64,000 nt of DNA from Aliterella atlantica CENA595 (GTDB lineage Bacteria; Cyanobacteriota; Cyanobacteriia; Cyanobacteriales; Chroococcidiopsidaceae). A program made the translations under genes and the position numbers. Numbering within the stretch: position 1 is the first letter of the stretch; every line of letters starts with the position of its first letter. The notes beneath the pieces were generated by a model that saw nothing but the letters and a program-made list of their open reading frames with translations, had not been told where the DNA came from and did no database searches. Positions 3,941 through 32,181 of the stretch are shown piece after piece. Where the stretch lies: NCBI RefSeq assembly GCF_000952155.1, contig NZ_JYON01000005.1:1-64000 (forward strand), written 5' to 3'.

Positions 3941-6900
3941 ATGTCTAAGTTGCGTCAATCTGAAGACATAACTGCTTACAATCAAGAGTCTTTAGAGGCG
4001 CTAATTCAAGCTATCGATTTATCTCAAGGACAATTTACGCTAATTTTAATACGTTGCAATTATGCCAGCGTGCGCGAACAAATAATTTATCAATTACAAA
4101 AACAATGTCCAGTTAGAATTGAAAGTTTAGCTCTACAAAAGTCAGTAAGAACTTTATACAGCACGATTAAAACAAGTTTAAGCGATCGCACTCCCGCAGC
4201 TTTGATGGTACGAGGCTTAGAATCAGTCAGTGCCATCGAACAAGTATTAGTTGCAACTAACCAAGTTAGAGAAGAATTTCGCAAAATATTTCCTTTTCCG
4301 CTCTTAATTTGGGTCACTGACGAAGTATTGCAAAAAATGATTCGGTTAGCGCCAGACTTTGAAAGTTGGGCAACAACTTATGAATTTGCGATCGCAACTA
4401 AAGAACTAATTAGCTTCCTTGTACAAACGACTGATGAAGTATTTGCCAAAGTTCTAGAAATGGGTGCAGGTAAGTTTCTTGACAATGCAGCCTTGAACTT
4501 AGAAATTGGTTCTTCCCGTCGGTTTCAACTAGAATCAGCGTGGCGAGACTTGCAAGCACGCGGCATAAATTTGCAGCCAGAACTAGCAGCTAGCTTAGAA
4601 TTCGTCCTCGGACGCGACGCTAGTAGCTCAATGGAGCAGTCTTTGCAACACTACGAGCGCAGTTTGGCATTTTGGCAACAAAGCAGTAACTTGGAGCGAA
4701 AAGGCTGCTTATTGTTCTCTATAGGATTGTGGTGGCGTACCTACGCCGTACTACATCGGGCGCAGTACGATCGCGCTTGTACTAAAGCTAAAGAGTATTA
4801 TCAACAATGTATTGCTACTTTCGAGCAAGCCAATCGCCCAGACTTACAGGCTAAATTTATTAACGCTTTGGGCGATGTCTTGCAAAAACTGAAATTATGG
4901 AACGAGTTAGAAATTGTTGCAGGGCAAGCTCTGAATCTGCATAAAATTGATAGCGATGCAGTTAGACTTGCTTATGCTTACGGCTTGCTAGCAGAAGTTG
5001 CATTAGCTAAAACCGATTGGACTCAAGCACATTTGTCTGCTCAAGAAGCATTGCAGATTTTAGCTAATGCACAGTACGTCCAATCTACTCGTACCGAAGA
5101 CGACAATAGCAGCTTGAATCGAGCTAATACCTATCATCGTGGTTGGTACGTACTATTACTGGCGATCGCCCAGCAACATCTTGGTAATATTGCTAGTGCC
5201 ATCCAAAACCTAAAAACAGCCAAAGCCGAAACAAAACCGCAACACGATCCGCAATTATATATTCGGATCTTAGAGACATTGCGAGCGCTTTACTTCAATG
5301 CTGGTAAATATCTAGAAGCCTTTACCCTCAAGCAAGAACAGCGTTCTATCGAGCAGCAATACGGCTTTCGTGCTTTTATTGGTGCAGGTCAACTGCAACC
5401 CCAAGGTCAAGTTATTAATTTAGCTTTAGTGCCAAGCGATCGGCAAGCAACTGTAGCACAAATAATTGCTGCTTCTGGAAGACAACCAGATGTAGAAGCA
5501 TTACTTGTGAGAATGAGCAGTCACGATAATGCACTCACTATCTTACACGGACAATCGGGCGTAGGTAAAAGCTCGTTGATTGATGCAGGATTAGTCCCCG
5601 TACTAAAAGAACGAGGAGTAGGCGAACAATCGGCTTTACCTATCGTGTTGCGAAACTATACTGATTGGGAACAGGAATTAGGGCAAAATCTGGTAGAAGC
5701 GCTAGCAGAAAATTGGAATAATATCAATATTTCTACTCAAATAAATACCAGCAAAAAAATTTTAGAACAGTTACAACAAAACAGACAATATAATATTAAA
5801 ACTATTTTTATTTTCGATCAATTTGCTCAACTTTTCTTCGTCAAACAGCAAGCAGAAAGAAAGCCGTTTTGGGAATTTTTGCGAGATTGTTTAAATACTT
5901 CTGCTGTTAAAGTTATTATTGCTATTAGAGAAGATTATTTATATTACTTATTAGAAGCTGAACGTTTGACAGCAAATAACGGTACAAGAAACGCTATTTT
6001 AAAAGACATCTTAAGCAAAAACAATCGCTATTCTTTAGGTAATTTTTCCACTACGGAAGCCAAAGAAATTATTCAAAAATTAACAGCGCGATCGCAATTC
6101 GACCTAGAACCAGATTTAGTTGAAGAGATGGTTAAGGATCTAGGCAAGTCGGGAGAAGTTCGTCCCATTGAATTACAAGTAGTAGGGGCGCAATTACAAA
6201 CAGATAATATTCAAACATTGGAGAAGTATCGACAATTTGGACCTAAAGAAAAATTAGTCCAAAGATTTCTAGCAGAAGTAGTTAAAGATTGTGGTTCTCC
6301 TAATGAAGATATTGCCCAATTAGTTCTATATCTACTTACAGATGAAAAACTCACTCGCCCGTTAAGAACTCGCAACGAACTAATATCTGAAGCAAATAAA
6401 ATATTAAATGATTTAGCAGACAAAGAAACAGAATTAGAATTAATATTAAACATCTTTGTTGCTTCAGGTTTAGTTTCACTTTTGCAAGAAGTTCACATTC
6501 AACGCTATCAATTAGTTCACGATTATCTAATTTCTTTTATCAGACAGCAAAGTGAGAAAGGATTAATAGCCAAAATCAAGGAAGAACAAAGAAAGTCAAA
6601 ACTTATAGAAAAGCAATATAGGCAATTACAAAAATGGATATTTGCAGCTTTATTCGCCGTGCCTATGACAATTGTTATAGGAATATTAGCATATAGAGCA
6701 ACAGTATTAGCATATAAAGCAACAATAAATGCTCGGCAGGCAGAGATAGCAAAAACAAATGCTTTAATTACCTCCTCAAAAGCTTTATTAAATTCAAACC
6801 AAGAATTTGATGCCCTTGTATCCGGTTTACAAGCAGTACAAGGGTTAAAAAGCGATCGCACTCAGCAGCAAACGGAAGTCAAAGAAGTAATTCAGCAAGC

Positions 6901-19944: not shown

Positions 19945-20008
19945 GCGATCGCATTTCTAACAGCAAGCCCAAGAATTACGCGACATAATTGCCAAGAAGC
20001 GAGGTTAG
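19945..20008 (+). pseudogene. decayed copy of the acyltransferase 3' end
   Basis: This stretch repeats the end of the acyltransferase gene (18929-19003). HIP1 is followed by CAGCAAGCCCAAGAATT, translating to QQAQELRD, then IIAKKRG and a TAG, against YKQAQELRDKMQDIITQLSR in the intact gene. About 35 of the first 40 bases agree by eye. It is too short to be a gene and is best read as a relic of a second copy. Confidence 0.5.
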
Positions 20009-20077
20009 GGCGATCGCTTATTTGTGCTGTCACTCATACTGATAAGCTTGAGAAAAGAAATTGTGTAAATTAGAGCT

Positions 20078-20353
20078 ATGTTGTTTGATTGGGACGAGGA
20101 AAAAGCCAAAAGCAACCAAGCCAAGCATAATGTTTCTTTCGATGAAGCCAGTTCTGTGTTTGACGACCCACTGTTTTTAACCTTTGCCGATCCAGAACAC
20201 TCCCTTCAAGAGCGACGTTTCATTATTATGGGAGAATCAGCCCAAGGAAGATTGTTAGTTGTTGCTTACACTGACCGCGCAGAAACCACTCGCCTAATCA
20301 GCGCCCGTCTAGCTACCCGCAAAGAACGTAAAGCTTATGAGTCAGACCTTTGA
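20078..20353 (+). CDS. brnT: BrnT-family toxin
   Basis: BrnT toxins are RelE-fold ribonucleases that block translation and are neutralised by BrnA. The 91 residues match the family throughout: FDWDEEKAKSNQAKHNVSF, DDPLFLTFADPEHS, ERRFIIMGESAQGRLLVVAY and RLISARLATRKERKAYE. The last 17 bases overlap the start of the antitoxin gene, so both are translated from one message. Complex-mediated autorepression is normal for the family. The 165-base spacer upstream holds the decayed acyltransferase fragment. Confidence 0.9.
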   Translation: MLFDWDEEKAKSNQAKHNVSFDEASSVFDDPLFLTFADPEHSLQERRFIIMGESAQGRLLVVAYTDRAETTRLISARLATRKERKAYESDL

Positions 20354-20582
20354 AACGGATGATGATTTACGCCCCGAATACGACTTTACCCAACTCCCAG
20401 TTGTAGCTCGTGGTCTAGGACGTAAACAAGCCAGCCTAACTGTCCAGATAGATCCAGATGTAGCAGCAATTTTTCCAGATTCAGGAGCCGTCAATGAAGG
20501 TTTGCGCCTATTAATGAGACTGATTCAACAGTCCCCATCCCAGCCTGGTTCAAAGTCTGTAACTGCATCAAAAGATGAATAG
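20337..20582 (+). CDS. BrnA-type antitoxin
   Basis: The 81-residue protein begins inside the toxin gene. It carries DDDLRPEYDFTQLP, shared by antitoxins of BrnT partners, and then LTVQIDPDVAAIFPDSGAVNEGLR, a ribbon-helix-helix-like segment for DNA binding and dimerisation. The N-terminal part is expected to wrap the toxin. The Ser/Thr/Lys-rich end (SKSVTASKDE) looks disordered. Position, overlap and motif together make the antitoxin role likely. Confidence 0.82.
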   Translation: MSQTFETDDDLRPEYDFTQLPVVARGLGRKQASLTVQIDPDVAAIFPDSGAVNEGLRLLMRLIQQSPSQPGSKSVTASKDE

Positions 20583-20626
20583 GTATTAACAGCCTCGAAT
20601 AAATCAACAGATAGTCAGCTTAATCA

Positions 20627-21001
20627 ATGCCACAAAACAAGAGAGACGAGATAGTAAAGTACCTTACACAATGTTCTCTTGTTGAACTGCGAGAGATTTT
20701 AAGTGCTGTGTTTAAAACTCGAAGACCTAATCCTGAAGAAGATAAATACAACAAAAACTGCTTTTTTCTTGGTACTGCTTCTAGCCTTTTAGAAAGCAGC
20801 GAAGGAGAAGCAGAACGCTGGGGAACTTGTGAGATTGCAGCAGTTGCTAATGTTGATAAAGAAGTGTATGGCGAAGATGTACTAGGAATAGACTGGGGGT
20901 TCTGTCAGTTTGGTACGTGTTCTTCATGTGGAATCGGAGTACGCTCAAACTTGAAACACGGTGTTTGTCCAACGTGTGGTAGTAAAGTTGCTATGAGTTG
21001 A
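20627..21001 (+). CDS. small protein with a C-terminal zinc ribbon
   Basis: The 124 residues have an N-terminal helical part (LTQCSLVELREILSAVF, KTRRPNPEED), a middle part with a Glu/Trp-rich segment, and a C-terminal CSSCGIG...CPTCGSK ribbon that can bind zinc with four cysteines. No family is recognised. It follows the toxin-antitoxin pair by 44 bases on the same strand and may be accessory DNA. Confidence 0.6.
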   Translation: MPQNKRDEIVKYLTQCSLVELREILSAVFKTRRPNPEEDKYNKNCFFLGTASSLLESSEGEAERWGTCEIAAVANVDKEVYGEDVLGIDWGFCQFGTCSSCGIGVRSNLKHGVCPTCGSKVAMS

Positions 21002-21137
21002 TGATATCGCGATCGCTTTGCCTTGGATAGTAGGGCTAATTTAGTACCAATCCGTTCGTACACCCACCCCGATCGCCCTAGCGCTGACAATCTAATCATA
21101 AAATAAGAATATCAAGAAATATTAAGGATCGAGCTTG

Positions 21138-22088
21138 ATGAATTTGTTTTTTGCAGTGGTGGGATTTGTCTTATTGCTCCTATCACTGGGCGTTGCTTTC
21201 TATCTCATCACGGCTCGTCGCTATCAATCTGCCAACTCTGTAGCCAATTCCTACGACCAATGGACAGAAGACGGTATTTTGGAGTTTTATTGGGGCGAAC
21301 ACATTCACTTAGGTCATTATGGCTTGCCGCCACAAAGGAAAGATTTTCTTACTGCCAAAGCTGACTTCGTGCATGAAATGGTGCGTTGGGGAGGCTTAGA
21401 TAAATTACCCCCAGGCACAACCCTATTAGATGTTGGCTGTGGAATTGGCGGCAGCAGCCGCATATTAGCGCGAGATTACGGGTTTGCTGTTACAGGTATT
21501 ACTATCAGTCCCCAACAGGTAGAACGCGCCCAACAGTTAACTTCTGCGGAACTTGACGTGAAATTTTTGGTAGATGATGCAATGGCACTTTCATTCCCAG
21601 ATGCGAGTTTTAATGTAGTTTGGTCAATTGAAGCTGGACCGCATATGCCTGACAAAGCCATCTTTGCAAAAGAGCTAATGAGGGTGCTAAAGCCTGGTGG
21701 CGTAATGGTTATGGCTGACTGGAATCAAAGAGACGATCGCCAAAAACCGCTCAATTTTTGGGAAAAACCTGTAATGCAGCAACTCCTCGATCAGTGGTCT
21801 CATCCTGCATTTTCTAGTATTGAAGGCTTTGCGGAACTTCTAGAAGCAACAGGGTTAGTAGAAGGAGAAGTGACAACAGCAGACTGGACACAACAAACAC
21901 TTCCTTCTTGGCTAGATTCTATCTGGCAGGGAGTAGCTAGACCAGAGGGATTAGTGCGTTTTGGTTTGTCAGGGTTGATTAAATCTCTGCGCGAAGTCCC
22001 CACCTTGCTATTGATGCGGCTAGCATTTGGCACAGGACTTTGCCGTTTTGGGATGTTTCGCGCCTTGCGAGCTAATTCGCCAAAATAG
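21138..22088 (+). CDS. 2-methyl-6-phytyl/solanesyl-benzoquinol methyltransferase (Sll0418 type)
   Basis: The enzyme methylates 2-methyl-6-phytylbenzoquinol, and probably the solanesyl analogue, with S-adenosylmethionine in tocopherol and plastoquinone synthesis. After an N-terminal membrane helix (NLFFAVVGFVLLLLSLGVAF) come SVANSYDQWTEDGILEFYWG and the SAM motif LDVGCGIGGSSRILA (from residue 97), then WSIEAGPHMPDKA and ADWNQRDDRQ. The sequence follows Synechocystis Sll0418 closely over its length as I recall it. The ATG at 21138 has AAGGAT 8 bases upstream; the TTG at 21135 is rejected. Confidence 0.88.
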   Translation: MNLFFAVVGFVLLLLSLGVAFYLITARRYQSANSVANSYDQWTEDGILEFYWGEHIHLGHYGLPPQRKDFLTAKADFVHEMVRWGGLDKLPPGTTLLDVGCGIGGSSRILARDYGFAVTGITISPQQVERAQQLTSAELDVKFLVDDAMALSFPDASFNVVWSIEAGPHMPDKAIFAKELMRVLKPGGVMVMADWNQRDDRQKPLNFWEKPVMQQLLDQWSHPAFSSIEGFAELLEATGLVEGEVTTADWTQQTLPSWLDSIWQGVARPEGLVRFGLSGLIKSLREVPTLLLMRLAFGTGLCRFGMFRALRANSPK

Positions 22089-22116
22089 ACCTTTTGCATA
22101 AGTACATAGTTCAACA

Positions 22117-22152
22117 GACAAGGGAGACAAGGAGGACAAGGGGGACAAGGGA
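22117..22152 (+). repeat. tandem GACAAGGGR nonamer repeat
   Basis: Four consecutive 9-base units (GACAAGGGA, GACAAGGAG, GACAAGGGG, GACAAGGGA) lie 29 bases after the methyltransferase stop. This is a familiar cyanobacterial short tandem repeat. The rest of the 431-base spacer to 22519 shows no gene or clear signal. Confidence 0.8.
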
Positions 22153-22519
22153 GAAAAAGTTAAAATTGCCAATTTACAGAGCGTTGCCTACTTTTGCAAG
22201 AAGTCTAATCGATACCAAAAGTTGCTAGCCAAGCTGCTGAAGTTTAACGTCTGGGAAATGCCTCTAGGTTTTGGATTAGCAACTACTGTTCGAGCGCTGC
22301 AAAATAATCTCCATGAGTAATGCAGAAAAAGCCGCAAATCTAATCCGCGTAGCTGGGCACTTCTGCAGATCGTTTAACAAGAAGAGTAGTTGATGCGTCC
22401 GCTTTTGTTAAGTTCAAGCTTGAATCATCATTTTCTATGATGCAATACCCAAAAGAAAATCAATGGCAGAACATGGTAGTCTTAAGCACACAATAAAAGC
22501 AGAGTAACGAAATTAATTC

Positions 22520-25312
22520 ATGTTTGCACAACAGCCAGAGCGGCGAATGCACTGGGTCCGCTGGGTATTGACCATTGGGTGGCTCTTGGCGATCGCTTCC
22601 CTATTCTACGACCCTTGGACATCAGTGTTAACAGAACCAGATCGTACCTGGAGTCCCTTGCGGTTAACTAATACCTGCGTTCAAGTGCAAGGCGAATGCT
22701 TATCCGAGCAACCTTACCCACTGGGAACAACTTTATTTTGGGGGGCTATTGTCCCCAGTGCAATCTTTATCTTGCTGGTGTTTGGACACGAGCTATGGCG
22801 GCGGATTTGCCCCTTATCATTTTTATCCCAAATTCCTCGCGCTCTAGGTTGGCAAAGACAATTTAAACGAGAAAATAAAAAGACTGGCAAAGTACGCTAC
22901 GAACTAGCAAAAGTTAACTCTGATTCGTGGCTGGGCAAAAACTATCACTACGTACAATTTGGCTGGCTATTTGCAGGGTTATGCGGGCGAATTTTATTTT
23001 TCAATGCCGATCGCTTAGTATTGGCAGGTTGGTTGCTATTTACAATTGGGGCGGCGATCGCCGTAGGCTATTTTTACGGGGGTAAGTCTTGGTGTCAATA
23101 CTTCTGCCCGATGGCTCCGGTGCAAAGCATTTATAGCGAACCAGGAGGCTTGTTAAGTAGCAAAGCCCACATGAGCGATCGCACTATTACTCAATCTATG
23201 TGTCGCACTGTCCTACCCGATGGTCAAGAACAAAGTGCCTGTGTGGCTTGCCAAAATCCTTGCATTGATATTGACTCCGAACGCACCTATTGGGACAGCT
23301 TAAACAAGAGCGAAACTTCATTTCTGCGCTATGGCTATGTAGGCTTAGTAGTTGGCTATTTTATTTATTACTATTTGTATGCAGGCAACTGGGATTATTA
23401 CTTTTCTGGGGCGTGGCTCAGACAAACTGACCAACTAGCGTCCCTGTTTAGCCCTGGACTCTATCTTTTTGGACAATCTATCAATATTCCCAAAATAGTT
23501 GCCGTCCCCATCGTGCTAGGCGGCTGTACGGCGATCGCCTATTGGCTAGGACGTGCGATCGAAAAACGCGCGAAATCTTACAGTCGTAGGCATTATCCAA
23601 ATCTAGCGGTTGAGACGATTCGACATCGTATTTTTACCCTTTGCACTTTTGGAATTTTCAACTTTTTCTTTATTTTTGGCGGTCGTCCTTTAGTTCAGCT
23701 TTTACCTTTGTCGGTGCAATATATCTACGACTTAGGTTTAGTTTTGCTGAGTACCCTTTGGCTCTATAAAACTTGGCGACGCAGCCCCGATTTTTATGCT
23801 CGTGAAAATTTAGCTAGTCGATTCCGCAAGCAGTTGGAAAAATTACAGCTAAATGTTTCGCAGTTTTTAGAAGGGCGATCGCTTAATGACCTCAATACCC
23901 ATGAGGTGTATGTGTTAGCCAAAGTCTTACCTGGCTTTACTCGCGAGAAACGACACCAAGCATACAAGGGAGTCGTTCGAGAAGCCTTAGAGGAAGGCTA
24001 TGTTAACTACTCTAGTAGTTTAGAAATTTTGCAGCAAATGCGCCAAGAGTTAGGTATTACTGACGACGAACACCGTCAGGTTTTAGATGAATTGGGTATT
24101 GAAGATCCGCAGTTGCTCAACCCCAATCGTCAACGCAGCTTAGAAAATCAGATTCGCTTGAGTGGCTATCGTAAATCGCTAGAGCGGTTGATGGCTTTGC
24201 AAAGAAAACAAAGCGATCGCTCTACTACCCTCCCAGATTCAGATGAAATTCGTTCCTTGCGCCGCCAATATTCGATCTCACCCCAAGAGGAAGATTGGAT
24301 TTTAAGCGGATTGTCGGAAAATGCAAGCAGTATCAACAAGGCTGAGTTTTTAATAGCTCAATTATCAGAATTGATTAATTGCTACCGCGCTGTAAATCAA
24401 CCTGTACTCCAACAGCAAGCGGTATTAACGCTGCTGCGATCGCACGTAGCGCATAAAAAAGAACTGATAGTGCGATCGCTGCTAGAAACTTTAGTAGTTG
24501 TGCAAAATGAGCCGAATGTGACACTAGCACAGTCTTTGCAACAGTCTTCGCCATCGGTGTTGATGGAAATTTTAGCGCGTGAAGATTGGCGCGATCGCCT
24601 CTCACCAGAAATTATCCAAACTCTAACTCAGCCAGGAGAAACGCCCGTTGCTTGTTCGCTGGAATTGTCTGCTGGTGAGATCTTACATTACTTAGAAGTT
24701 TTGCTACAGGAGCAAAACCCCCTAATTCAAGCGGCTGCGCTTTATGCGATCGCGTGGCTAGATGCAGAACGCGCTGCGGCGATCGCCCAGAATCTGCATC
24801 ATGAGTCACCACACCTGCTCGTGCGGGAAACTGCTGAACTGCTGCTGTCACCAACTCCAAACCCACTTCTAAGCGCATTTCCGGCTTTAGAAAAATCAGT
24901 TTATTTATTCAACAGCGATTTCTTCCACCGCGTGCAGAGTGAAACGCTAATAGCACTTGCTAATCTAGCTGAAGTGAGAACCTATTCTAGCGGTGAGGTA
25001 ATTACAGAAGCCGGCGATACCTGTCGCGAGTTGTTGCTGTTAATTGAAGGTAACGCTAATATTCTCTATCAAACTGAGACGGGGATTCAAGTTGAATACC
25101 TCCATCCCGGACAAACACTAGATGAGCTTGAGGTTTTGGCGCACAGTACATCAGAAAACACCATCGTTGCAGATAGCCAAAAGACGCGCATTCTTGCCAT
25201 CTCAGTCGATACTTTTGACGACTTACTCGATCGCGATCCTGATTTTGCCCGGAGGGTGTTGGAGTTAGAAAGTAAGCAGCTACAACGATTTGTGCGATCG
25301 ATGCAAACTTAA
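22520..25312 (+). CDS. NosR-like membrane iron-sulfur protein fused to a cyclic-nucleotide-binding domain
   Basis: The 930-residue protein starts with several membrane helices (about residues 12-420) carrying cysteine motifs: RRICPLSF, CQYFCPM and CVACQNPCIDID. These resemble the NosR/NapH/CcoG class of membrane 4Fe-4S proteins. Residues of about 440-780 are soluble and mostly helical, with MQRELGITDDEHRQVL-like segments and HEAT-like helices. The end (about 800-930) is a cNMP-binding domain: RTYSSGEVITEAGDTCRELL, then LIEGNANILYQ. I infer a membrane redox unit controlled by, or reporting to, a cytoplasmic cyclic-nucleotide domain. The electron donor and acceptor are unknown. Confidence 0.72.
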   Translation: MFAQQPERRMHWVRWVLTIGWLLAIASLFYDPWTSVLTEPDRTWSPLRLTNTCVQVQGECLSEQPYPLGTTLFWGAIVPSAIFILLVFGHELWRRICPLSFLSQIPRALGWQRQFKRENKKTGKVRYELAKVNSDSWLGKNYHYVQFGWLFAGLCGRILFFNADRLVLAGWLLFTIGAAIAVGYFYGGKSWCQYFCPMAPVQSIYSEPGGLLSSKAHMSDRTITQSMCRTVLPDGQEQSACVACQNPCIDIDSERTYWDSLNKSETSFLRYGYVGLVVGYFIYYYLYAGNWDYYFSGAWLRQTDQLASLFSPGLYLFGQSINIPKIVAVPIVLGGCTAIAYWLGRAIEKRAKSYSRRHYPNLAVETIRHRIFTLCTFGIFNFFFIFGGRPLVQLLPLSVQYIYDLGLVLLSTLWLYKTWRRSPDFYARENLASRFRKQLEKLQLNVSQFLEGRSLNDLNTHEVYVLAKVLPGFTREKRHQAYKGVVREALEEGYVNYSSSLEILQQMRQELGITDDEHRQVLDELGIEDPQLLNPNRQRSLENQIRLSGYRKSLERLMALQRKQSDRSTTLPDSDEIRSLRRQYSISPQEEDWILSGLSENASSINKAEFLIAQLSELINCYRAVNQPVLQQQAVLTLLRSHVAHKKELIVRSLLETLVVVQNEPNVTLAQSLQQSSPSVLMEILAREDWRDRLSPEIIQTLTQPGETPVACSLELSAGEILHYLEVLLQEQNPLIQAAALYAIAWLDAERAAAIAQNLHHESPHLLVRETAELLLSPTPNPLLSAFPALEKSVYLFNSDFFHRVQSETLIALANLAEVRTYSSGEVITEAGDTCRELLLLIEGNANILYQTETGIQVEYLHPGQTLDELEVLAHSTSENTIVADSQKTRILAISVDTFDDLLDRDPDFARRVLELESKQLQRFVRSMQT

Positions 25313-25551
25313 CAGGTAGTATATCTCAGTCTTTTGAAGTTTAGTTTTGAGCTTGTTAAACTATTTCATGCAAGCGATCGCTTCCAAATACTAACCGATT
25401 CTTTACAGAGCGAGCGGACTGCGGACAGCTTTACCACCCCGATTAAGAGCAACTAGCACCGTACAATAATCCCGTTGCACACCGACCGAATAAGGGCGCT
25501 CGGCGGCGGGTGGACGGGAACGTTAACCACTTCTTCTGAACCCAAAACGGA
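25313..25551. other. spacer before the first cassette
   Basis: No gene is seen. The last 100 bases are GC-rich compared with the neighbourhood. GTTAACC at 25522-25528 lies 23 bases before the immunity-like gene and could be the left recombination core of that cassette (one base off GTTRRRY). No matching left half with good pairing was found, so no complete attC is called here. Confidence 0.3.
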
Positions 25552-25986
25552 ATGTTTGCTATCGAATTTGTAGGTCAGCCGTGCATTGAATTTAACCAAC
25601 CGGCTATTCGCGGACGAATTACACTTGGCGACTTTTCAGAGGAGTTTGTTGCGCCGCTCGTTTTTTGGACAGTTGACGATTACCAAAAACAATGGCGCGA
25701 GGCTGCCGAACGCATTGTCGCCGGAGAAGCACGTTCCTGCTTTGCAGCTTCCATACGCGAATCGCCAGATGACGGCGCAATTTTTATCTGGACAGCTTAC
25801 AAACTTGCTGATACTGTTCATTTTCAGCACAAGTTATTGCTACCGGAAACTGTAAAAGGCACGTTTGAGCCGTTGAATATTTACGCGCAAGTTGACGAAC
25901 GCCAAACCAAAACAGAAGATGGCTTTCAGATTTCCGAGTGGCAAGTGACAGTTAAAGACGTTGCGTATTGGTTACGGGTGGGCTAA
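25552..25986 (+). CDS. CdiI-like immunity protein in an integron-type cassette
   Basis: The 144 residues resemble small immunity proteins of the CdiI_4 kind: FVGQPCIEFNQPAIRGRITL, GDFSEEF, FWTVDDYQKQWREAAERI, SCFAASI and a closing DGFQISEWQVTVKDVAYWL. Such proteins bind and block toxin tips of contact-dependent inhibition systems and are common cassette cargo. No toxin gene is nearby, so it would be an orphan that protects against neighbours. The stop codon TAA lies inside the R'' box of the following attC-like site, as is usual for cassette genes. Family assignment rests on recalled pattern, so it is moderate. Confidence 0.55.
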   Translation: MFAIEFVGQPCIEFNQPAIRGRITLGDFSEEFVAPLVFWTVDDYQKQWREAAERIVAGEARSCFAASIRESPDDGAIFIWTAYKLADTVHFQHKLLLPETVKGTFEPLNIYAQVDERQTKTEDGFQISEWQVTVKDVAYWLRVG

Positions 25987-26098
25987 CAAGTTATTAGACG
26001 TGAGGCAGGAACAGCAACTTTCCTTTCATTTAACGGTTCTTCTGAACCCGCAACTTGCGTGTAGCCGGTTCCCGCCTACATCAACGCTGCCGTTAGCC
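25981..26098 (+). repeat. attC-like recombination site 1
   Basis: The site has outer boxes GGCTAAC (25981-25987, fits RYYYAAC) and GTTAGCC (26092-26098, fits GTTRRRY), which are perfect inverses. Inside each, after a 9-base spacer, come imperfect inverse arms: GACGTGAGGCAGGAAC on the left and, read on the other strand, GATGTAGGCGGGAAC on the right. Total length 118 bases is within the attC range. The extra G in one arm could be an extrahelical base. Confidence 0.72.
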
Positions 26099-26200
26099 TG
26101 CTTCGTTTACAGATAGTGGTAAGACTTTGAAAATTATCTATTGGAAGCACCACAAGGGAATAATACCAGTGAAATAGTTGTTTGTATTACGGTTCAAGAT

Positions 26201-26272
26201 ATGGATGCTGAAGAATTGATTCGACGCTATGAGGCAGGGGAGCAGGACTTTAGCGGAGTGCGTATTGGGTGA
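26201..26272 (+). pseudogene. truncated start of a pentapeptide-repeat gene
   Basis: An ATG at 26201 opens 23 codons reading MDAEELIRRYEAGEQDFSGV and then a stop. This is the leader that precedes pentapeptide repeats elsewhere in the window (MTREELLARYQAGKRDFQGV at 13560). The repeats themselves are missing, so this is a broken gene fragment. Confidence 0.5.
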
Positions 26273-26333
26273 GAGTTTTACGGATGAGGACGATCAAAAC
26301 GCCGAAGACGACGGGGACAATCAACCCCGATCC

Positions 26334-26360
26334 AGAAGGATGAATAGCACCCATCCTTCT
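26334..26360 (+). other. inverted repeat AGAAGGATG upstream of the cassette 2 genes
   Basis: AGAAGGATG and CATCCTTCT form a perfect 9-bp stem around a 9-base loop, 55 bases before the next start codon. No T-run follows. It might act as a leader hairpin or operator. Confidence 0.3.
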
Positions 26361-26414
26361 AACCTCAAGGTATTATGGAGAAATCTCAAGAAGGTAGCGA
26401 TCGGGAGTCAGCGT

Positions 26415-26687
26415 ATGCAAGCGATCCTTTTAAGCCGTGAAGAAGTTGCCCGTCGTGCAAAGCAACTGTATGAAAATAGCATCCGTCAAAAAGTCGAGGT
26501 CGAAGAAAACATTGGCAAGATGGTGATTATCGACATCGAGACAGGCGATTACGAAGTTGATAAGACTGGCTTGCAAGCTTCTCGTAACCTTAGTAAAAAG
26601 CACCCAAATGCTAGACTCTTCGGGATTCGGATCGGATACAATGTTGCCGTCTCCTTTGGGGGTGTCATGGAGCGTGTTGACAAGTGA
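26415..26687 (+). CDS. small conserved protein coupled to the clan AA protease
   Basis: The 90 residues begin at MQAILLSREEVARRAKQLYE and include ENIGKMVIIDIETGDYEVD and NARLFGIRIGYNVAVSFGG. I recall similar small proteins next to clan AA aspartic proteases in cyanobacteria, where the pair looks like a two-component module. GGGAG lies 8-12 bases before the ATG at 26415, so this start is preferred to in-frame upstream starts whose extra 62 residues look non-coding. The stop overlaps the GTG of the next gene. An antitoxin-like or chaperone-like role is speculation. Confidence 0.65.
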   Translation: MQAILLSREEVARRAKQLYENSIRQKVEVEENIGKMVIIDIETGDYEVDKTGLQASRNLSKKHPNARLFGIRIGYNVAVSFGGVMERVDK

Positions 26688-27049
26688 TTTCTGGGATTGT
26701 AACAAATCAACACGCAACGATCGCTTTGACGTTCTTGTTACCCAATGGTTCAACTATCCCCATTGAGTTTGTCATCGATACAGGATTCACCGGAGAGTTG
26801 TGCCTTCCCATAGAAGCAGTCTCACTGATGGGTTTGACCTTTAGACACGATACGTTTGCAAATTTGGCAGATAACAGCGAGGTATCACTTCCTCTTTACG
26901 AAGCATTTGTCCTCTGGGATGGTATTGAGCGGGATGTGTTGGTCATTGCGACAGGTAGGCGACCTCTGCTTGGAACCGCTTTGCTGGATGAACAAGAGTT
27001 GGTGATTCAGTTTACAGAGGGTGGATTGGTGACGCTCGACGAGTTGTAG
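26684..27049 (+). CDS. clan AA retropepsin-like aspartic protease
   Basis: The 121-residue protein has the single-domain retropepsin layout: a first strand pair ISGIVTNQHATIALTFLLPN, the catalytic FVID32TGFTGELCLP, a flap-like region, and RRPLLGTALLDEQELVIQF near the end, where the hydrophobic-Gly strand is expected. Such proteins must dimerise to form the active site. The start is GTG, overlapping the previous stop by four bases (GTGA), so translation is coupled. The target is unknown; the partner encoded upstream is an obvious candidate. Confidence 0.82.
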   Translation: MISGIVTNQHATIALTFLLPNGSTIPIEFVIDTGFTGELCLPIEAVSLMGLTFRHDTFANLADNSEVSLPLYEAFVLWDGIERDVLVIATGRRPLLGTALLDEQELVIQFTEGGLVTLDEL

Positions 27050-27075
27050 ATGCATATCCAGCGTGACGCAACGCA

Positions 27076-27160
27076 GGCTAACAATGCAGTGGAGCGGATG
27101 GTTGAGAGTCTCCGCGCTACGTTCTAGTCTACTCGCCGCCGCTCGCTTCCGCCGTTATAT
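27076..27160 (+). repeat. attC-like recombination site 2
   Basis: GGCTAAC (27076-27082) repeats the left box of site 1 exactly, with the same AAC continuation. GTTATAT (27154-27160) is the right box, one base off GTTRRRY. After 5-base spacers on both sides, the arms AGTGGAGCGG and (other strand) AAGCGAGCGG pair at seven of ten positions. The length is 85 bases. It begins 26 bases after the protease stop. Confidence 0.62.
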
Positions 27161-27211
27161 AGAGTATCTTCGGGGAGTTTAAGCGGTTCCTTGCGGTAAG
27201 TCAACAAAAGT

Positions 27212-29209
27212 CTAATCTGCATTACTTAAAACTTCTGGCTCATCGTCTAATGAGAGGAGATATTGAATTAAATCTGTTTGCTCTTGCTTGCTGTATCCAG
27301 CGCGACGATCTACCCAATAATTATGTCCGCTTCCATCTACATTTGACTTTTGCAAGTTAGGATTAGCTTTATTAGCTGCGATCGCTTTTTCCCTTAATCG
27401 CCGATCTAGCAATACTCTCAAGCTATTACTCGGATCTGGTAAGATATTCTGCATTAGCGTTCCTGCCATGCCTAATTGAGTGCGATCGCCTAATTGATAC
27501 TCGTTATCGCCTTCAGTAAGTGCGTCTACTCCCGCCGCTACCCCACCATCGTGCAAATAGGGCGCGGTAACGTGCAAGCCAATTAAGCTAGGTACTTTAT
27601 AACCGCCTGCATTTCCTTGGGCTAAAGCAAGTTGTTGTGCAGGTAAAGGTGTTATATCAACAGGAACATCTAATACAGGTGGATCTGGTGGTAGAGGTAC
27701 GTTGACGTTACTAGGGTAAGTCTGCGGCGATGTAAAAATGCGCGGGAACTTCGAGAAAGCTGTCGCCCGCGATGGTTGAGTCAAAATTTCTTTCGCTGGA
27801 ATGACATCATGATTGGTGAAATAACGTCCGCTATGACATTGCACGCAGCTAGCACGACTAAAAACTTTTGCTCCCCGCGCTACAGCTTCTTTATCTAACT
27901 GATTATTTGCTGGTGGTGCAAGGGTATTTTGCCATGCAGACATCCCATTAATTTGTTGTCCTACCGGATAACCTGGCGAACTTGCCATCAATCCATCTAA
28001 AATAAATGGCGAACCTTTGGGATATCCAGGCATTGGTATCACCTCATTCATACCTGCTACGCCTGGTGTGGGATCTATTTTCTGAAAAAATTCCGATGGT
28101 TTTGCGCCTTTAGGCAAGCGAAATCTTGAATTAGCTGAATTTTGTAGAATTACGCCTAAGTAAGTCTCTCGATCAATTCCTAGTAACTTTTGACTTGCAT
28201 CTGCGCCTGTTGTTAAGTCTGAGTTAGTTCCATGTACGTTGCTATTTAGTGTAGTTAGCCCGTGAAACCAACCAATTGCAGCATTTCCACTCCAACCATA
28301 AGGGAATGCTTCGTGAGTGTAAGAAGATGGATTTTGCGACGGGTTATTGACATTATCTCCGGTAGAATCAAAGTTACCAGGCGACCATGTAAGTAATTGT
28401 GCGTCAACAGCTTTTTCTAAAGCTTGGGCATCGGGAAGATATGCTTGTTTGTTGTCTGCTTTGGTGTAAACTACGTCAGCTGTGCCAATTTTTAGCGGGT
28501 TAACTCCTGTTTGCCTAAACCAAGCGGCTGAGTTGCTAGCTAATGCCAAAATTAAGCCTGTATCTAAGTCGTTATTTGGTGCGCCTTCGAGGATGCGTCC
28601 GCTTTTGCTATCTACTGCTGCATGACACGCCGCACAAGTGACACCGACGCGAATTTTACCTTGATGGATTACTGTTTGAATGCCTAACGGTACTAGGGAA
28701 CCTGTAGCTACATCTAAGCCTGTGTTGAGGATGGTTCCTTTTTTTAAGGCGCGATCGCCTACAACCATATCTCGATCTAAGCTAACTTGCAAGTTGGTTG
28801 TATGCTTGCCTTTGAGAGATGCGATCGCTTTTGCTAAATTACCGATATTCAATGGTCCATTTAATATGCCCGTTACATCGGTAAAAAATACTTCATTTTT
28901 GAATGTTTCGCTATAAAATGCTTTGCGCCCTACTGATAATAAGCGATCGTCTATAGCAACTGCGCCGTTTTCTGGTGCTAGTTTTTCCCTACCTTCATCT
29001 GTTTGCGACAGTTGTGCGGCTTCTGCTTTGTCTACTGTACGACCTAATATATCGTAACTGCCAACCCCTGAAGGTGCAGACTGGGTAACGGGTGTATAAG
29101 TTTTACCTAAACTTGGCGTACCAGGAATAATTAGTTCTACTTGGTAGGCTAAAAAACCAATGAGGATAATTATAGAAAGTATGACAATTACAATCGAGCG
29201 CAACCGCAT
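27212..29209 (-). CDS. di-haem c-type cytochrome, cytochrome c peroxidase-like
   Basis: The 665-residue protein has one N-terminal anchor (SIVIVILSIIILIGFLAYQV) and two haem-binding motifs, VTCAACHAAV and ASCVQCHSGR. The second half has the TAPYLHDGG loop of the di-haem peroxidase/MauG class, which normally precedes a distal haem site. It is expected in the periplasm or lumen, anchored to the membrane. Whether it is a peroxidase or only an electron carrier cannot be told. It starts 206 bases from the divergent gene at 29416, leaving a shared promoter region. Confidence 0.8.
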   Translation of the reverse strand: MRLRSIVIVILSIIILIGFLAYQVELIIPGTPSLGKTYTPVTQSAPSGVGSYDILGRTVDKAEAAQLSQTDEGREKLAPENGAVAIDDRLLSVGRKAFYSETFKNEVFFTDVTGILNGPLNIGNLAKAIASLKGKHTTNLQVSLDRDMVVGDRALKKGTILNTGLDVATGSLVPLGIQTVIHQGKIRVGVTCAACHAAVDSKSGRILEGAPNNDLDTGLILALASNSAAWFRQTGVNPLKIGTADVVYTKADNKQAYLPDAQALEKAVDAQLLTWSPGNFDSTGDNVNNPSQNPSSYTHEAFPYGWSGNAAIGWFHGLTTLNSNVHGTNSDLTTGADASQKLLGIDRETYLGVILQNSANSRFRLPKGAKPSEFFQKIDPTPGVAGMNEVIPMPGYPKGSPFILDGLMASSPGYPVGQQINGMSAWQNTLAPPANNQLDKEAVARGAKVFSRASCVQCHSGRYFTNHDVIPAKEILTQPSRATAFSKFPRIFTSPQTYPSNVNVPLPPDPPVLDVPVDITPLPAQQLALAQGNAGGYKVPSLIGLHVTAPYLHDGGVAAGVDALTEGDNEYQLGDRTQLGMAGTLMQNILPDPSNSLRVLLDRRLREKAIAANKANPNLQKSNVDGSGHNYWVDRRAGYSKQEQTDLIQYLLSLDDEPEVLSNAD

Positions 29210-29415
29210 GATACCCCGCTAGCCTACCACTAGCACGCACTTTAAGGCGATCGCTGCTATATATCGTCTGTCTGAAGAAAGAAACCCTTTTTGTAGTTTT
29301 TATACAAACACCTGTAAAGGTGCGATCGCCAATTGTATGTTTAGAGCAATAAAAAGGATAGTTGTACAAATTAACTATGACTGCTATATAAGTTAAAGAT
29401 TTTAATATATCTGTT

Positions 29416-30852
29416 ATGCTATCTGTTCAAGAAGTCAAAAGAAAAAAATTTCCATCACGTCGCTATCTTTGGTTAGAAAGATTGCTAGCGATTATTGCTT
29501 TAATTAACCTAGTTTTGGTTGCTTTCGATTTAAGTTATGTTCCTTGGCGAGATTTTTATTTTGAAGAAGCACCAATAATAGTGCAATATTACGATCGAGT
29601 TAAAGGTATAGAACCACACCGAGAAACGCAAAGATACTTAAATACTGTAGATAAATTAGAAACTCAAGTCGAGCAAAGTGGCTTGCAGTCAGAGGAAACA
29701 GAAAGAGTTTTGTTACAGCTACGCAGACTAAGTAATGAAATGATTGAAGACAATCCTTTTGATGTTGCTAATAAAACGGGTAACTTAGCTAAAATCAAAA
29801 GATTGATGCGCGTTCGCGTTGCTTCGTTTGAAAATGCTTCTTCTGAATTATCTGCTCATGAGGCTTTTACATTATTTTGGAGTCAGTTGTATCTTTCGCA
29901 AAGAAATTGGCAGGAGGAAATTAGCTTTTTCAATTCAAACTTGCGTCCGTTAATTGCTACTAATTATTATAGAGATATTGGCGAAAATAGTAAGTTTATT
30001 GACAAGTTTTGGTTAATAGATTCTCCATTTATAGCTATTTTTGTTTTAGACTTTTTAATCAGAACTCTGTATATTAGTGTCCGCAATAAGCTAACTTGGT
30101 TAGAAGCAATGTTGCGGCGTTGGTACGATCTTTTCTTATTACTGCCTTTTTGGCGTTGGCTAAGAGTAATTCCTGTAACTATTCGCTTGTATCAATCTCG
30201 CCTGCTAAATCTCGAACCTGTGCGATCGCAAATTAACCACGATTTTGTGGCAAACTTTGCTGAAGAAATTACCGAAGTAGTAGGGATTCGCCTAATCGAT
30301 CAATTACAAGAAGCAGTTAGAAGAGGTAATATTAGCCGCTGGTTGTTTCGTTCTACTTCTGGGCAAAGTTATGTTGATATTAATAACAGAAATGAAATTC
30401 AAGCGATCGCCAATCGTTTAATTCAATTAAGTGTCTATCAAGTTTTACCAAAAATTCAACCAGATATTCAAGTTTTGCTCAACCATACTATTCAAAACGT
30501 TTTGAATCAGTCGCCTGTTTATCGCCAGATTCAAAATGTACCAGGTATGAACAAGTTACCCAACCAAATGACTGAGAAGCTAGCAAATGATATATCACAA
30601 GCAGCCTACAGCACTATTACAAACTTTATGGAAGATCCTGTAGCTGCTAAAATGTGGAATAAATTATTTGACAACTTTAGTAAAGCTTTAGAGGTAGAAC
30701 TACAAAAACAGCCCAATATTCAAGAAATTCAAACATTAGTTATAGACTTATTGGAAGAAATTAAAATTAACTACGTTCAAAGTATTGCTGAAGGAGGAGT
30801 AGAAGATATTTTGGAAGAGTCACAAAAAATTAGACGAATTAATCGCAAGTAG
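29416..30852 (+). CDS. membrane protein with voltage-sensor-like helices, function unknown
   Basis: The 478 residues have a first helix at about 22-44 (LLAIIALINLVLVAFDLSYV), a soluble helical segment with YYDRVKGIEPHRE, then two or three hydrophobic helices at about 200-260. The last of these (WRWLRVIPVTIRLYQSRLL) carries regularly spaced Arg residues, as in S4-type helices of channels. A 200-residue soluble C-terminus follows. No pore signature is seen. I do not recognise a characterised family; it seems to be a cyanobacterial conserved protein. Confidence 0.65.
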   Translation: MLSVQEVKRKKFPSRRYLWLERLLAIIALINLVLVAFDLSYVPWRDFYFEEAPIIVQYYDRVKGIEPHRETQRYLNTVDKLETQVEQSGLQSEETERVLLQLRRLSNEMIEDNPFDVANKTGNLAKIKRLMRVRVASFENASSELSAHEAFTLFWSQLYLSQRNWQEEISFFNSNLRPLIATNYYRDIGENSKFIDKFWLIDSPFIAIFVLDFLIRTLYISVRNKLTWLEAMLRRWYDLFLLLPFWRWLRVIPVTIRLYQSRLLNLEPVRSQINHDFVANFAEEITEVVGIRLIDQLQEAVRRGNISRWLFRSTSGQSYVDINNRNEIQAIANRLIQLSVYQVLPKIQPDIQVLLNHTIQNVLNQSPVYRQIQNVPGMNKLPNQMTEKLANDISQAAYSTITNFMEDPVAAKMWNKLFDNFSKALEVELQKQPNIQEIQTLVIDLLEEIKINYVQSIAEGGVEDILEESQKIRRINRK

Positions 30853-30972
30853 TTGCAAACTTATAGGCGAATAGAATTTGTGTCTACACAAACGCTTATA
30901 TGCCTGCGCGAACTATTTAATTTAACAATTAGCGGTCAAGATAATAATGTTTAAGTCCCCATGTTTGCTCCA

Positions 30973-30999
30973 GAATTACGAATTACGAATTACGAATTA
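30973..30999 (+). repeat. heptamer tandem repeat GAATTAC
   Basis: Consecutive copies of GAATTAC form a cyanobacterial short tandemly repeated repetitive sequence. The same unit, in either direction, occurs at 34839, 36182, 43951 and 59674. Confidence 0.8.
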
Positions 31000-31013
31000 T
31001 TCCGATCGCTGCT

Positions 31014-31403
31014 TCAATACACTACTTGATAGCGAACTAGCTTTCTTATATCTGCTAAAGATAGCCCTAATTCTTGAGCAATAGTTGACTCTACTTGATT
31101 AAATTCTGTAACTGGAAATTGAAACTCTAATTTAGTTAGTGCAGACTTGGTAGTTTTGACTTCGACTTTAGTAAAACCTTGTTTTTTATAGATTTCAGCT
31201 TTGATGACGAGAATAGTGACAGCAAGATTTACTTCCAGTTGGGTATCAGCTTCTAGCTGCGCTACAGTGCCATAAGGGCGGCTCAAAATGCGATCGCTCA
31301 TTAAACCACTACTTACCCAAAATGATAATCCTAGTAAGGGCAGCGCCAACCAAAACCATATTCCTAAAGAATGTAATACCCGTAAACCACGAAGAAGACG
31401 CAT
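31014..31403 (-). CDS. small membrane-anchored protein, function unknown
   Basis: The 129-residue protein has one hydrophobic segment near the N-terminus (LGIWFWLALPLLGLSFWVSS) and a soluble remainder with LEVNLAVTILVIKAEIYKKQ and ELGLSLADIRKLVRYQV. It is probably anchored with the C-terminus in the cytoplasm or the periplasm. No domain is recognised. It is divergent from the response regulator gene and may share its promoter region. Confidence 0.6.
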   Translation of the reverse strand: MRLLRGLRVLHSLGIWFWLALPLLGLSFWVSSGLMSDRILSRPYGTVAQLEADTQLEVNLAVTILVIKAEIYKKQGFTKVEVKTTKSALTKLEFQFPVTEFNQVESTIAQELGLSLADIRKLVRYQVVY

Positions 31404-31497
31404 AAACTAACAGGTTACTATTTTCCTATAACTGGTGGCAGACTAATTAATTGCGCGAACTACTTATAGTAAATAGTAATAGTTGCGATCGCATAGC

Positions 31498-32181
31498 ATG
31501 AGAATCTTACTTGTAGAAGATGACCCCGCGCAATTAGAACCTTTGCACGCCGCTTTAATGCAAGCTGGGCATATTGTTGACGGGCTAGAAGATGGAGAAG
31601 AAGCGCAATGGCTATTAGAGAAAAAAGAATACGATTTACTAATTTTAGACTGGATGCTGCCCAAAGTTAGCGGTTTGAGTCTGTGTCGCCAGTATCGCAG
31701 TCTAGGTAAAACTGCACCTGTACTGATGCTAACGGCTAAAGATGCTACCCCTGATAAGGTTGTAGGTTTAGATGCTGGCGCAGATGATTATTTAGTCAAA
31801 CCTACCGATTTGATTGAATTGCTAGCGCGGGTAAGGGCATTAGGTAGGCGATCGCCCGTACTGCAAAAAGATATCTTATGTATAGGCGATTTGCAACTAC
31901 ACCTCGATAGCCTTAGCCTGGCAAGAGGAGAAGCAAATATCCAGCTATCAACGCGAGAATTTCAATTAGTAGAATACTTTTTTCGTCATCCTGGGCAAGT
32001 ATTAAGCCGCGATCGCATCGAACAGGCATTATGGGAATGGGGTGCTGAACCTGAAAGTAACGCTGTTACTACTTTAGTCAAAAGGCTGCGCCAACGCTTG
32101 CAAGTTCTTGATGCCGCAGATTGGATCGAGACAGTCTACGGTATGGGTTATCGCCTTAATCCCGCTCATGTTCCATCGTAG
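31498..32181 (+). CDS. OmpR-family response regulator (RppA/NrsR-like)
   Basis: A receiver domain (phosphoacceptor D51 in [23 protein letters not shown]) is joined to a winged-helix DNA-binding domain ([43 protein letters not shown]). The ATG at 31498 gives the usual MRILLVEDD start; an upstream TTG is rejected. The kinase gene overlaps its last 14 bases, so they form one operon. The pair resembles RppA/RppB and NrsR/NrsS of Synechocystis, which respond to redox state or nickel. The signal here is unknown. Two GTCA-type direct repeats downstream are candidate targets. Confidence 0.88.

Follow-up and report, generated by a model that had tools for sequence, protein, structure and literature searches.

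A small-protein gene and an aspartic protease gene share an integron cassette in the cyanobacterium Aliterella atlantica CENA595

The window, a stretch of 64,000 nucleotides of contig NZ_JYON01000005.1 from A. atlantica CENA595, contains two neighbouring gene cassettes delimited by attC sites. The following features were assigned; scores of attC sites were obtained with the covariance model R1.

25461-25528, forward strand: attC1, weak (R1, 19.3 bits, E 0.0083), with R' box GTTAACC at 25522-25528; left border of cassette 1
25552-25986, forward strand: gene of cassette 1, encoding a CdiI_N-type immunity protein of 144 aa (PF18228, E 6.9e-45)
25981-26098, forward strand: attC2, 118 bp, recognised by R''/R' pairing and weak with R1 (16.7 bits, E 0.047); left border of cassette 2
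26093-27154, forward strand: cassette 2, from crossover point to crossover point as given by the R' boxes of attC2 and attC3
26201-26272, forward strand: truncated start of a pentapeptide-repeat gene, 23 codons and a stop, passenger DNA (sequence and homology)
26371-26376, forward strand: −10-like element TATTAT, 44 bases before the start codon of the small gene (recurrence of TA[TC][TC]AT)
26415-26687, forward strand: gene of the small partner protein, 90 aa (sequence; searches of family libraries gave no match)
26684-27049, forward strand: gene of a single-domain clan AA aspartic protease, 121 aa, with GTG start and DTG active site (TIGR03698, DTG)
27076-27160, forward strand: attC3, strong (R1, 62.5 bits, E 3.1e-15), with R' box GTTATAT

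Cassette 1 (25523-26092) is bounded by attC1 and attC2. Its CdiI_N immunity gene is not accompanied by a CdiA toxin gene in the same cassette. Cassette 2 holds the small gene, the protease gene (together the pair) and one gene fragment, with neither an ATP-grasp gene nor any other third complete gene. Its mechanistic borders, 26093-27154, replace the interval 26099-27075 of the initial annotation. The sites at the cassette ends agree with the attC layout of R''/R' and L''/L' stems with extrahelical bases, strongly by score for attC3 and weakly for attC1 and attC2; in attC2, the boxes GGCTAAC and GTTAGCC form seven of seven pairs, and attC3 begins 27 bases past the protease stop codon.

The R1 scan of the window yielded three attC sites, all on the + strand and within 1.7 kb, two of them weak by score. 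To build R1, 17 attC-like sites were taken from cyanobacterial loci with integrons or with the pair, the window sequence being excluded. Eleven of these sites were picked from the 15 hits of a stem search requiring inner-stem pairing, for which three shuffled copies of the same loci gave 8 hits, and the other six were chosen by their position behind the pair. The R1 stem was 89.8% paired, as against at most 45.9% with the partner slid. In the stem 43 cells had changed on both sides, compared with 16.5 in shuffles, a covariation that is partly built in because 11 of the 17 sites came from a search asking for inner-stem pairing.

The weak attC1 aligned with the attC behind the pair in the integron locus L229 with a score of 74, the maximum in 300 single-base shuffles being 61. 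The DNA similarity of cassette 2 to a copy in a genome of another order (L017) stops at 27156, within the GTT of the attC3 R' box; in this one copy, the homology break lies at the G/TT crossover point. A strict R''/R' search of the window (L009) and of L017-L045 recovered attC2 in the window; hits in L021, L030, L031 and L039 were not accepted as attC. Folding of the DNA gave no support for the candidates on the + strand (z 0.25, −0.94 and 2.12, the first over the longer interval 25390-25530). For the complementary strand, the fold of attC2 surpassed that of most shuffles (z −2.35; 5 of 200), which was not so for the other two sites (z 0.03 and 1.48). An Rfam search of 20000-32000 returned nothing.

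A near-empty site was observed in a genome of the same genus that is 65% complete (L070), where the ends of the same two flanking genes lie close together without cassettes. Similarity between this locus and the window stops at 25357 on the left and picks up again at about 27150. Some 50 unrelated bases stand there at the place of the window's cassettes.

The host genome (5.27 Mb in 60 contigs, 93% complete) contained no integron integrase above the cut-off of TIGR02249, and the attC array of the window is therefore a CALIN. A relic of an integrase C-terminus at G000:C31:26867-27043 (L002, L050) suggests the former presence of an integrase. Across the host genome, twelve attC sites were found at E up to 0.001. 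Those outside the window are scattered, two of them lying 0.5 kb apart on C17 (G000:C17:393752-394421) and three on C8.

Integrases above the curated cut-off were present in 22 of 386 cyanobacterial genomes. Seven small genes have an integrase gene or fragment within 10 kb, and all seven are divergent from it in the canonical layout. About 0.28 would be expected from a rough length calculation over 55 integrase matches (without the second fragments of four genes) and 50 small-protein matches (without two of G262 that lie on other contigs). The neighbouring integrase is above the cut-off in G185, G262, G253 and G282 and is a fragment in G305, G095 and G235; in G305 the pair forms the first gene group behind it. 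Full proteases lie beside the small gene in G185, G253, G282 and G305 and partial ones in G262 and G235, with none listed in G095. Six of these small proteins are 42-53% identical to that of the window, and the one of G262 is 78% identical. Cassette 2 is thus an integron gene cassette in an attC cluster without integrase. With attC3 at 62.5 bits and relatives near integrases in canonical orientation, the word cassette in the initial annotation proved to be literally right.

The small gene starts at a conserved ATG (26415) and ends with TGA at 26685-26687. The open reading frame that begins at 26229 is an upstream extension of it; homologues begin at 26415. The protease gene runs from a GTG start codon (26684-26686) to a stop codon at 27047-27049 and shares the four bases GTGA with the small gene. 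In 106 pairwise comparisons from 29 loci, which are not independent of each other, both genes were constrained, with a median dN/dS of 0.058 for the small gene and 0.081 for the protease gene. They look like real genes under purifying selection. By sequence and conservation, the cassette carries a two-gene operon in which the 90-aa partner is translated first and the retropepsin-type protease is coupled to it through the GTGA overlap. Two small genes that have the same orientation, overlap and are co-inherited correspond to the arrangement of a type II toxin-antitoxin pair.

Upstream of the small gene, positions 26199-26254 match the starts of pentapeptide-repeat genes in other genomes. In alignments with 29 other copies, the similarity of the DNA never begins before 26366, and the 5' stretch from 26093 to about 26366, which includes this leader, is unshared. 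Judged from these alignments, the leader is a real gene-start fragment and a passenger of the window's copy, left by recombination or deletion. The initial annotation had taken it as proof that another gene was the source or the insertion site of the cassette. A truncated gene start is indeed present in this copy, but it is absent from the 29 others and therefore informs on the window's copy and not on the origin of the module.

The −10-like element lies behind the leader. The motif TA[TC][TC]AT occurred at −58 to −40 of the small gene in 49 of 77 loci, whereas four control windows gave 0, 0, 4 and 0 of 77. Part of this recurrence is due to shared descent. Cassettes are described as generally promoterless (PMC11014356). 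Toxin-antitoxin cassettes of integrons are reported to have promoters of their own (PMC11023631), and other integron cassettes may have them too (PMC8618304).

The protease scored 68.4 bits against TIGR03698, above the curated cut-off of 57.35, and its catalytic D32-T33-G34 was invariant in 25 of 25 aligned proteins. The structure was predicted with modest confidence (mean pLDDT 62.8) and poorly at the termini; in retropepsins the termini make up the dimer interface. With a model of this pLDDT, the top fold match in the PDB was HIV-1 protease (probability 0.99, E 0.02), followed by other retroviral and pepsin-type proteases with some unrelated chains intermixed. The remark of the initial annotation that clan AA proteases are rarely characterised in bacteria is still fair according to PMC12239564, although RimB and RloA have by now been characterised (PMC11957791, PMC12239564).

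The small protein matched no family in Pfam, NCBIfam, PADLOC or PHROGs, its relatives had no Pfam match above the cut-off, and no antitoxin or DNA-binding domain was recognisable in it with Pfam, NCBIfam and PADLOC. Its structure was predicted with a pLDDT of 80.4, residues 78-90 at the tail being under 50. Fold searches of the PDB gave no convincing match (best Z 3.2); a CapRel entry at the same low level was discounted. The low pLDDT of the tail and the close adjacency of the genes would suit a substrate. In that case the protease would trim the small protein, for example within residues 78-90, and thereby activate or destroy it, as has been proposed for ImmA-type proteases and their repressors; PMC2701414 makes such a proposal for another class of protease and partner, COG2856 with Xre. 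The tail is, however, conserved up to E86-R87, the protein lacks a detectable DNA-binding domain, and the small gene persists without the protease, an unexpected pattern if the protein required cleavage. We consider a substrate role unlikely.

Homologues of the small protein were found in at least 75 of the 386 cyanobacterial genomes. The best identity reached 97%, in a genome of another order; the only other genome of the same genus in this set (G308) gave a weak match (E 3e-4). This patchy distribution fits horizontal transfer. Among 79 named loci, all cyanobacterial save for one Armatimonadaceae MAG, R1 detected 46 attC sites, 44 of them on the strand of the pair (p 3e-11 if independent). 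In eight loci (L128, L149, L113, L099, L091, L141, L104 and L131) an attC hit begins 19-27 bases past the protease stop codon. Since six sites of the model come from the 79 loci, six matches among the 46, and likewise six among the eight close to a protease stop, arise by construction; L104 and L131 are outside the training sites of R1.

The attC sites at L227:2987-3071 and L091:2657-2741 are 89% identical, and in the pairs before them the small proteins are about 50% and the proteases about 36% identical, as measured from those of the window. Sites better conserved than their genes suggest an exchange of attC. At G000:C12:27377-27885 (L046), the host genome contains another pair of small-protein and protease genes, decayed and very divergent, whose order and overlap are as in cassette 2; it may represent a third subfamily of this architecture. 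A search of open-licence PMC papers retrieved no paper on this gene pair.

The small gene was also found on cyanobacterial plasmids (9 of 72,556 records). Two of these plasmids were inspected; both are typed as conjugative, and on both the gene after the small gene is annotated as 'clan AA aspartic protease'. On the conjugative plasmid A of Trichormus variabilis ATCC 29413 (L245), the pair adjoins a RelE/ParE-ParD toxin-antitoxin pair, and a nuclease and a nuclease inhibitor are encoded nearby. Integron arrays and conjugative plasmids would be suitable homes for an anti-phage or anti-plasmid effector stored in integrons, with the small protein as sensor of the invader, and phage-related functions are described as common among cassettes (PMC8618304). 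Yet the protease gave only weak matches to peptidase models in PADLOC (E 0.017 and 0.033) and one match in PHROGs (E 0.15). No relatives were found in viral contigs or phages, a result that says little either way. Such a defence role appears very improbable to us.

Protease sequence lay directly downstream of the small gene in 67 of the 79 loci and was missing in 12. The protease was uninterrupted in 46 loci, of full length with an internal stop in six (L089, L095, L101, L124, L150 and L160) and partial in 15, whereas the small gene was uninterrupted in 77. The 12 protease-less loci include one with an early stop in the small gene (L122), one with the small gene cut by the contig end (L132) and one whose contig ends 53 bases further on (L143). 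Among the matches listed for the 386 genomes, 86 of 90 full-length proteases had an intact small gene immediately upstream; one of the remaining four followed a small gene with a stop, and three had none. All 150 listed small-protein matches and 122 of the 150 listed protease matches entered this count. The other 28 were left out as remote (E 4e-7 to 2e-4), 26 of them with identities of 26-39% and two being short fragments with 46-50%. About half of the 28 are near full length, and inspection by eye found no listed small gene beside any of them, so the pairing holds for the nearer protease branch only. The initial annotation had stated that the overlapping genes are made together and had proposed a survey of their co-occurrence across cyanobacteria. 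Both the overlap, seen in most copies, and the counts given above speak for coupled expression and for a conserved pair.

A small gene beside nearly all full-length proteases of the nearer branch (86 of 90, among the matches listed) would also be expected if the small protein were a chaperone, adaptor or activator that helps the protease to fold, to dimerise or to find its substrate. The pair would then be non-toxic, somewhat like RimB with RimK. The poorly modelled termini of the protease, at the retropepsin dimer interface, would agree with such a need for assistance. For the Pseudomonas proteins, an interaction of RimB with RimK is reported (PMC11957791). Against a helper function stand the many protease-less small genes, which would need another function, and the lack of any third complete gene, ATP-grasp or other, in the cassette. 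We judge it to be improbable, to the same degree as the substrate role.

The two genes are lost asymmetrically. Among the matches listed, 141 small genes were intact. A full protease accompanied 86 of them and a damaged one 19; no protease was listed for the other 36, although some of these may have one too divergent to detect. Thus 55 of 141 intact small genes lacked a full protease, in comparison to 4 of 90 full proteases without an intact small gene. Broken small genes were rarer with a full protease (1 of 87) than without (8 of 63), again among the matches listed. Relics of the protease start persist beside intact small genes in L126, L136, L155 and L156, which indicates that the loss of the protease is real. 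In L136, at about 6340-6361, the sequence between the approximate position of the DTG codons and the attC is deleted, and the small gene is intact; the deletion seems to have joined the protease to the attC and destroyed the active site. Small genes without a full protease were still constrained, with a median dN/dS of 0.16 (24 loci), an upper bound because the sequences were compared without gaps. The small gene hence often outlives the protease, and the converse is nearly unseen.

Our best guess is a toxin-antitoxin-like relation. The asymmetric gene loss, the mobility and the promoter-like element are compatible with it, as with the toxin/antitoxin-like or activation pair suggested in the initial annotation. 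The partner, translated first, would bind the freshly made protease, perhaps during assembly of the homodimer, and keep it inactive. If the cassette were lost or the partner depleted, free protease would cleave cellular targets with deleterious effect, and the pair would act as a toxin-antitoxin-like stabiliser or stress module. We infer both the restraint of the protease by the small protein and the harm caused by the free enzyme. An operon with the antitoxin first predicts the observed asymmetry of loss. Operon polarity, however, predicts it equally: it is the small gene that has the promoter-like element and the start signals, and its loss would be expected to silence the protease. No antitoxin or DNA-binding domain is recognisable in the small protein, and the 28 remote clan AA proteases without a listed small gene imply that this type of enzyme is tolerated alone. 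The constraint on protease-less small genes (dN/dS 0.16) further implies that the small protein may serve an independent function. Taken together, the toxin-antitoxin-like relation receives a little under one half of the probability in our estimate, and most of the remainder falls to the substrate and adaptor readings. The more specific proposal of a new toxin-antitoxin family, spread in cyanobacteria as an integron cassette with the retropepsin-type protease as toxin and the new-family partner as inhibitor, is still more tentative, and we would sooner doubt than adopt it.

Most integron cassettes have no known function, and the pair is a recurrent, conserved and horizontally moving two-gene cassette with a testable enzyme and a partner not assigned to any family. 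If the protease is toxic, an aspartic protease would join the effectors of toxin-antitoxin systems, and the pair could explain the stabilisation of some cyanobacterial cassettes. If it is not toxic, a branch of uncharacterised bacterial retropepsins still gains a partner. Integrons in Cyanobacteria as such are already described (PMC2426708, PMC8352920, PMC8618304); the pair makes up a two-gene integron cassette with an unusual enzyme.

The cassette protease shares with the TIGR03698 family a score above the cut-off, the DTG active site and the single domain. The family model covers the protease alone, whereas the cassette protease belongs to a branch tied to one partner gene. Like the cassette pair, RimB and RloA of Pseudomonas are described as bacterial retropepsin-like enzymes encoded with partners (PMC11957791, PMC12239564). 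Their partners are ATP-grasp, transglutaminase-like or phosphodiesterase proteins, unlike the small protein; the comparison with RimB relies on its published description. A RimA/RimB label for the pair was rejected because the linked ATP-grasp gene (RimK/RloC) is absent from the cassette.

The attC array of the window does not differ visibly from a CALIN, with its three attC sites on the same strand within 1.7 kb and no integrase above the cut-off in the genome. The toxin-antitoxin cassettes of sedentary integrons in Vibrio likewise consist of two small genes in one attC-bounded cassette with its own promoter, to which the promoter-like element of cassette 2 would correspond (PMC11023631). In contrast to these, the effector of cassette 2 would be a retropepsin, and its partner matches no family in the libraries searched.
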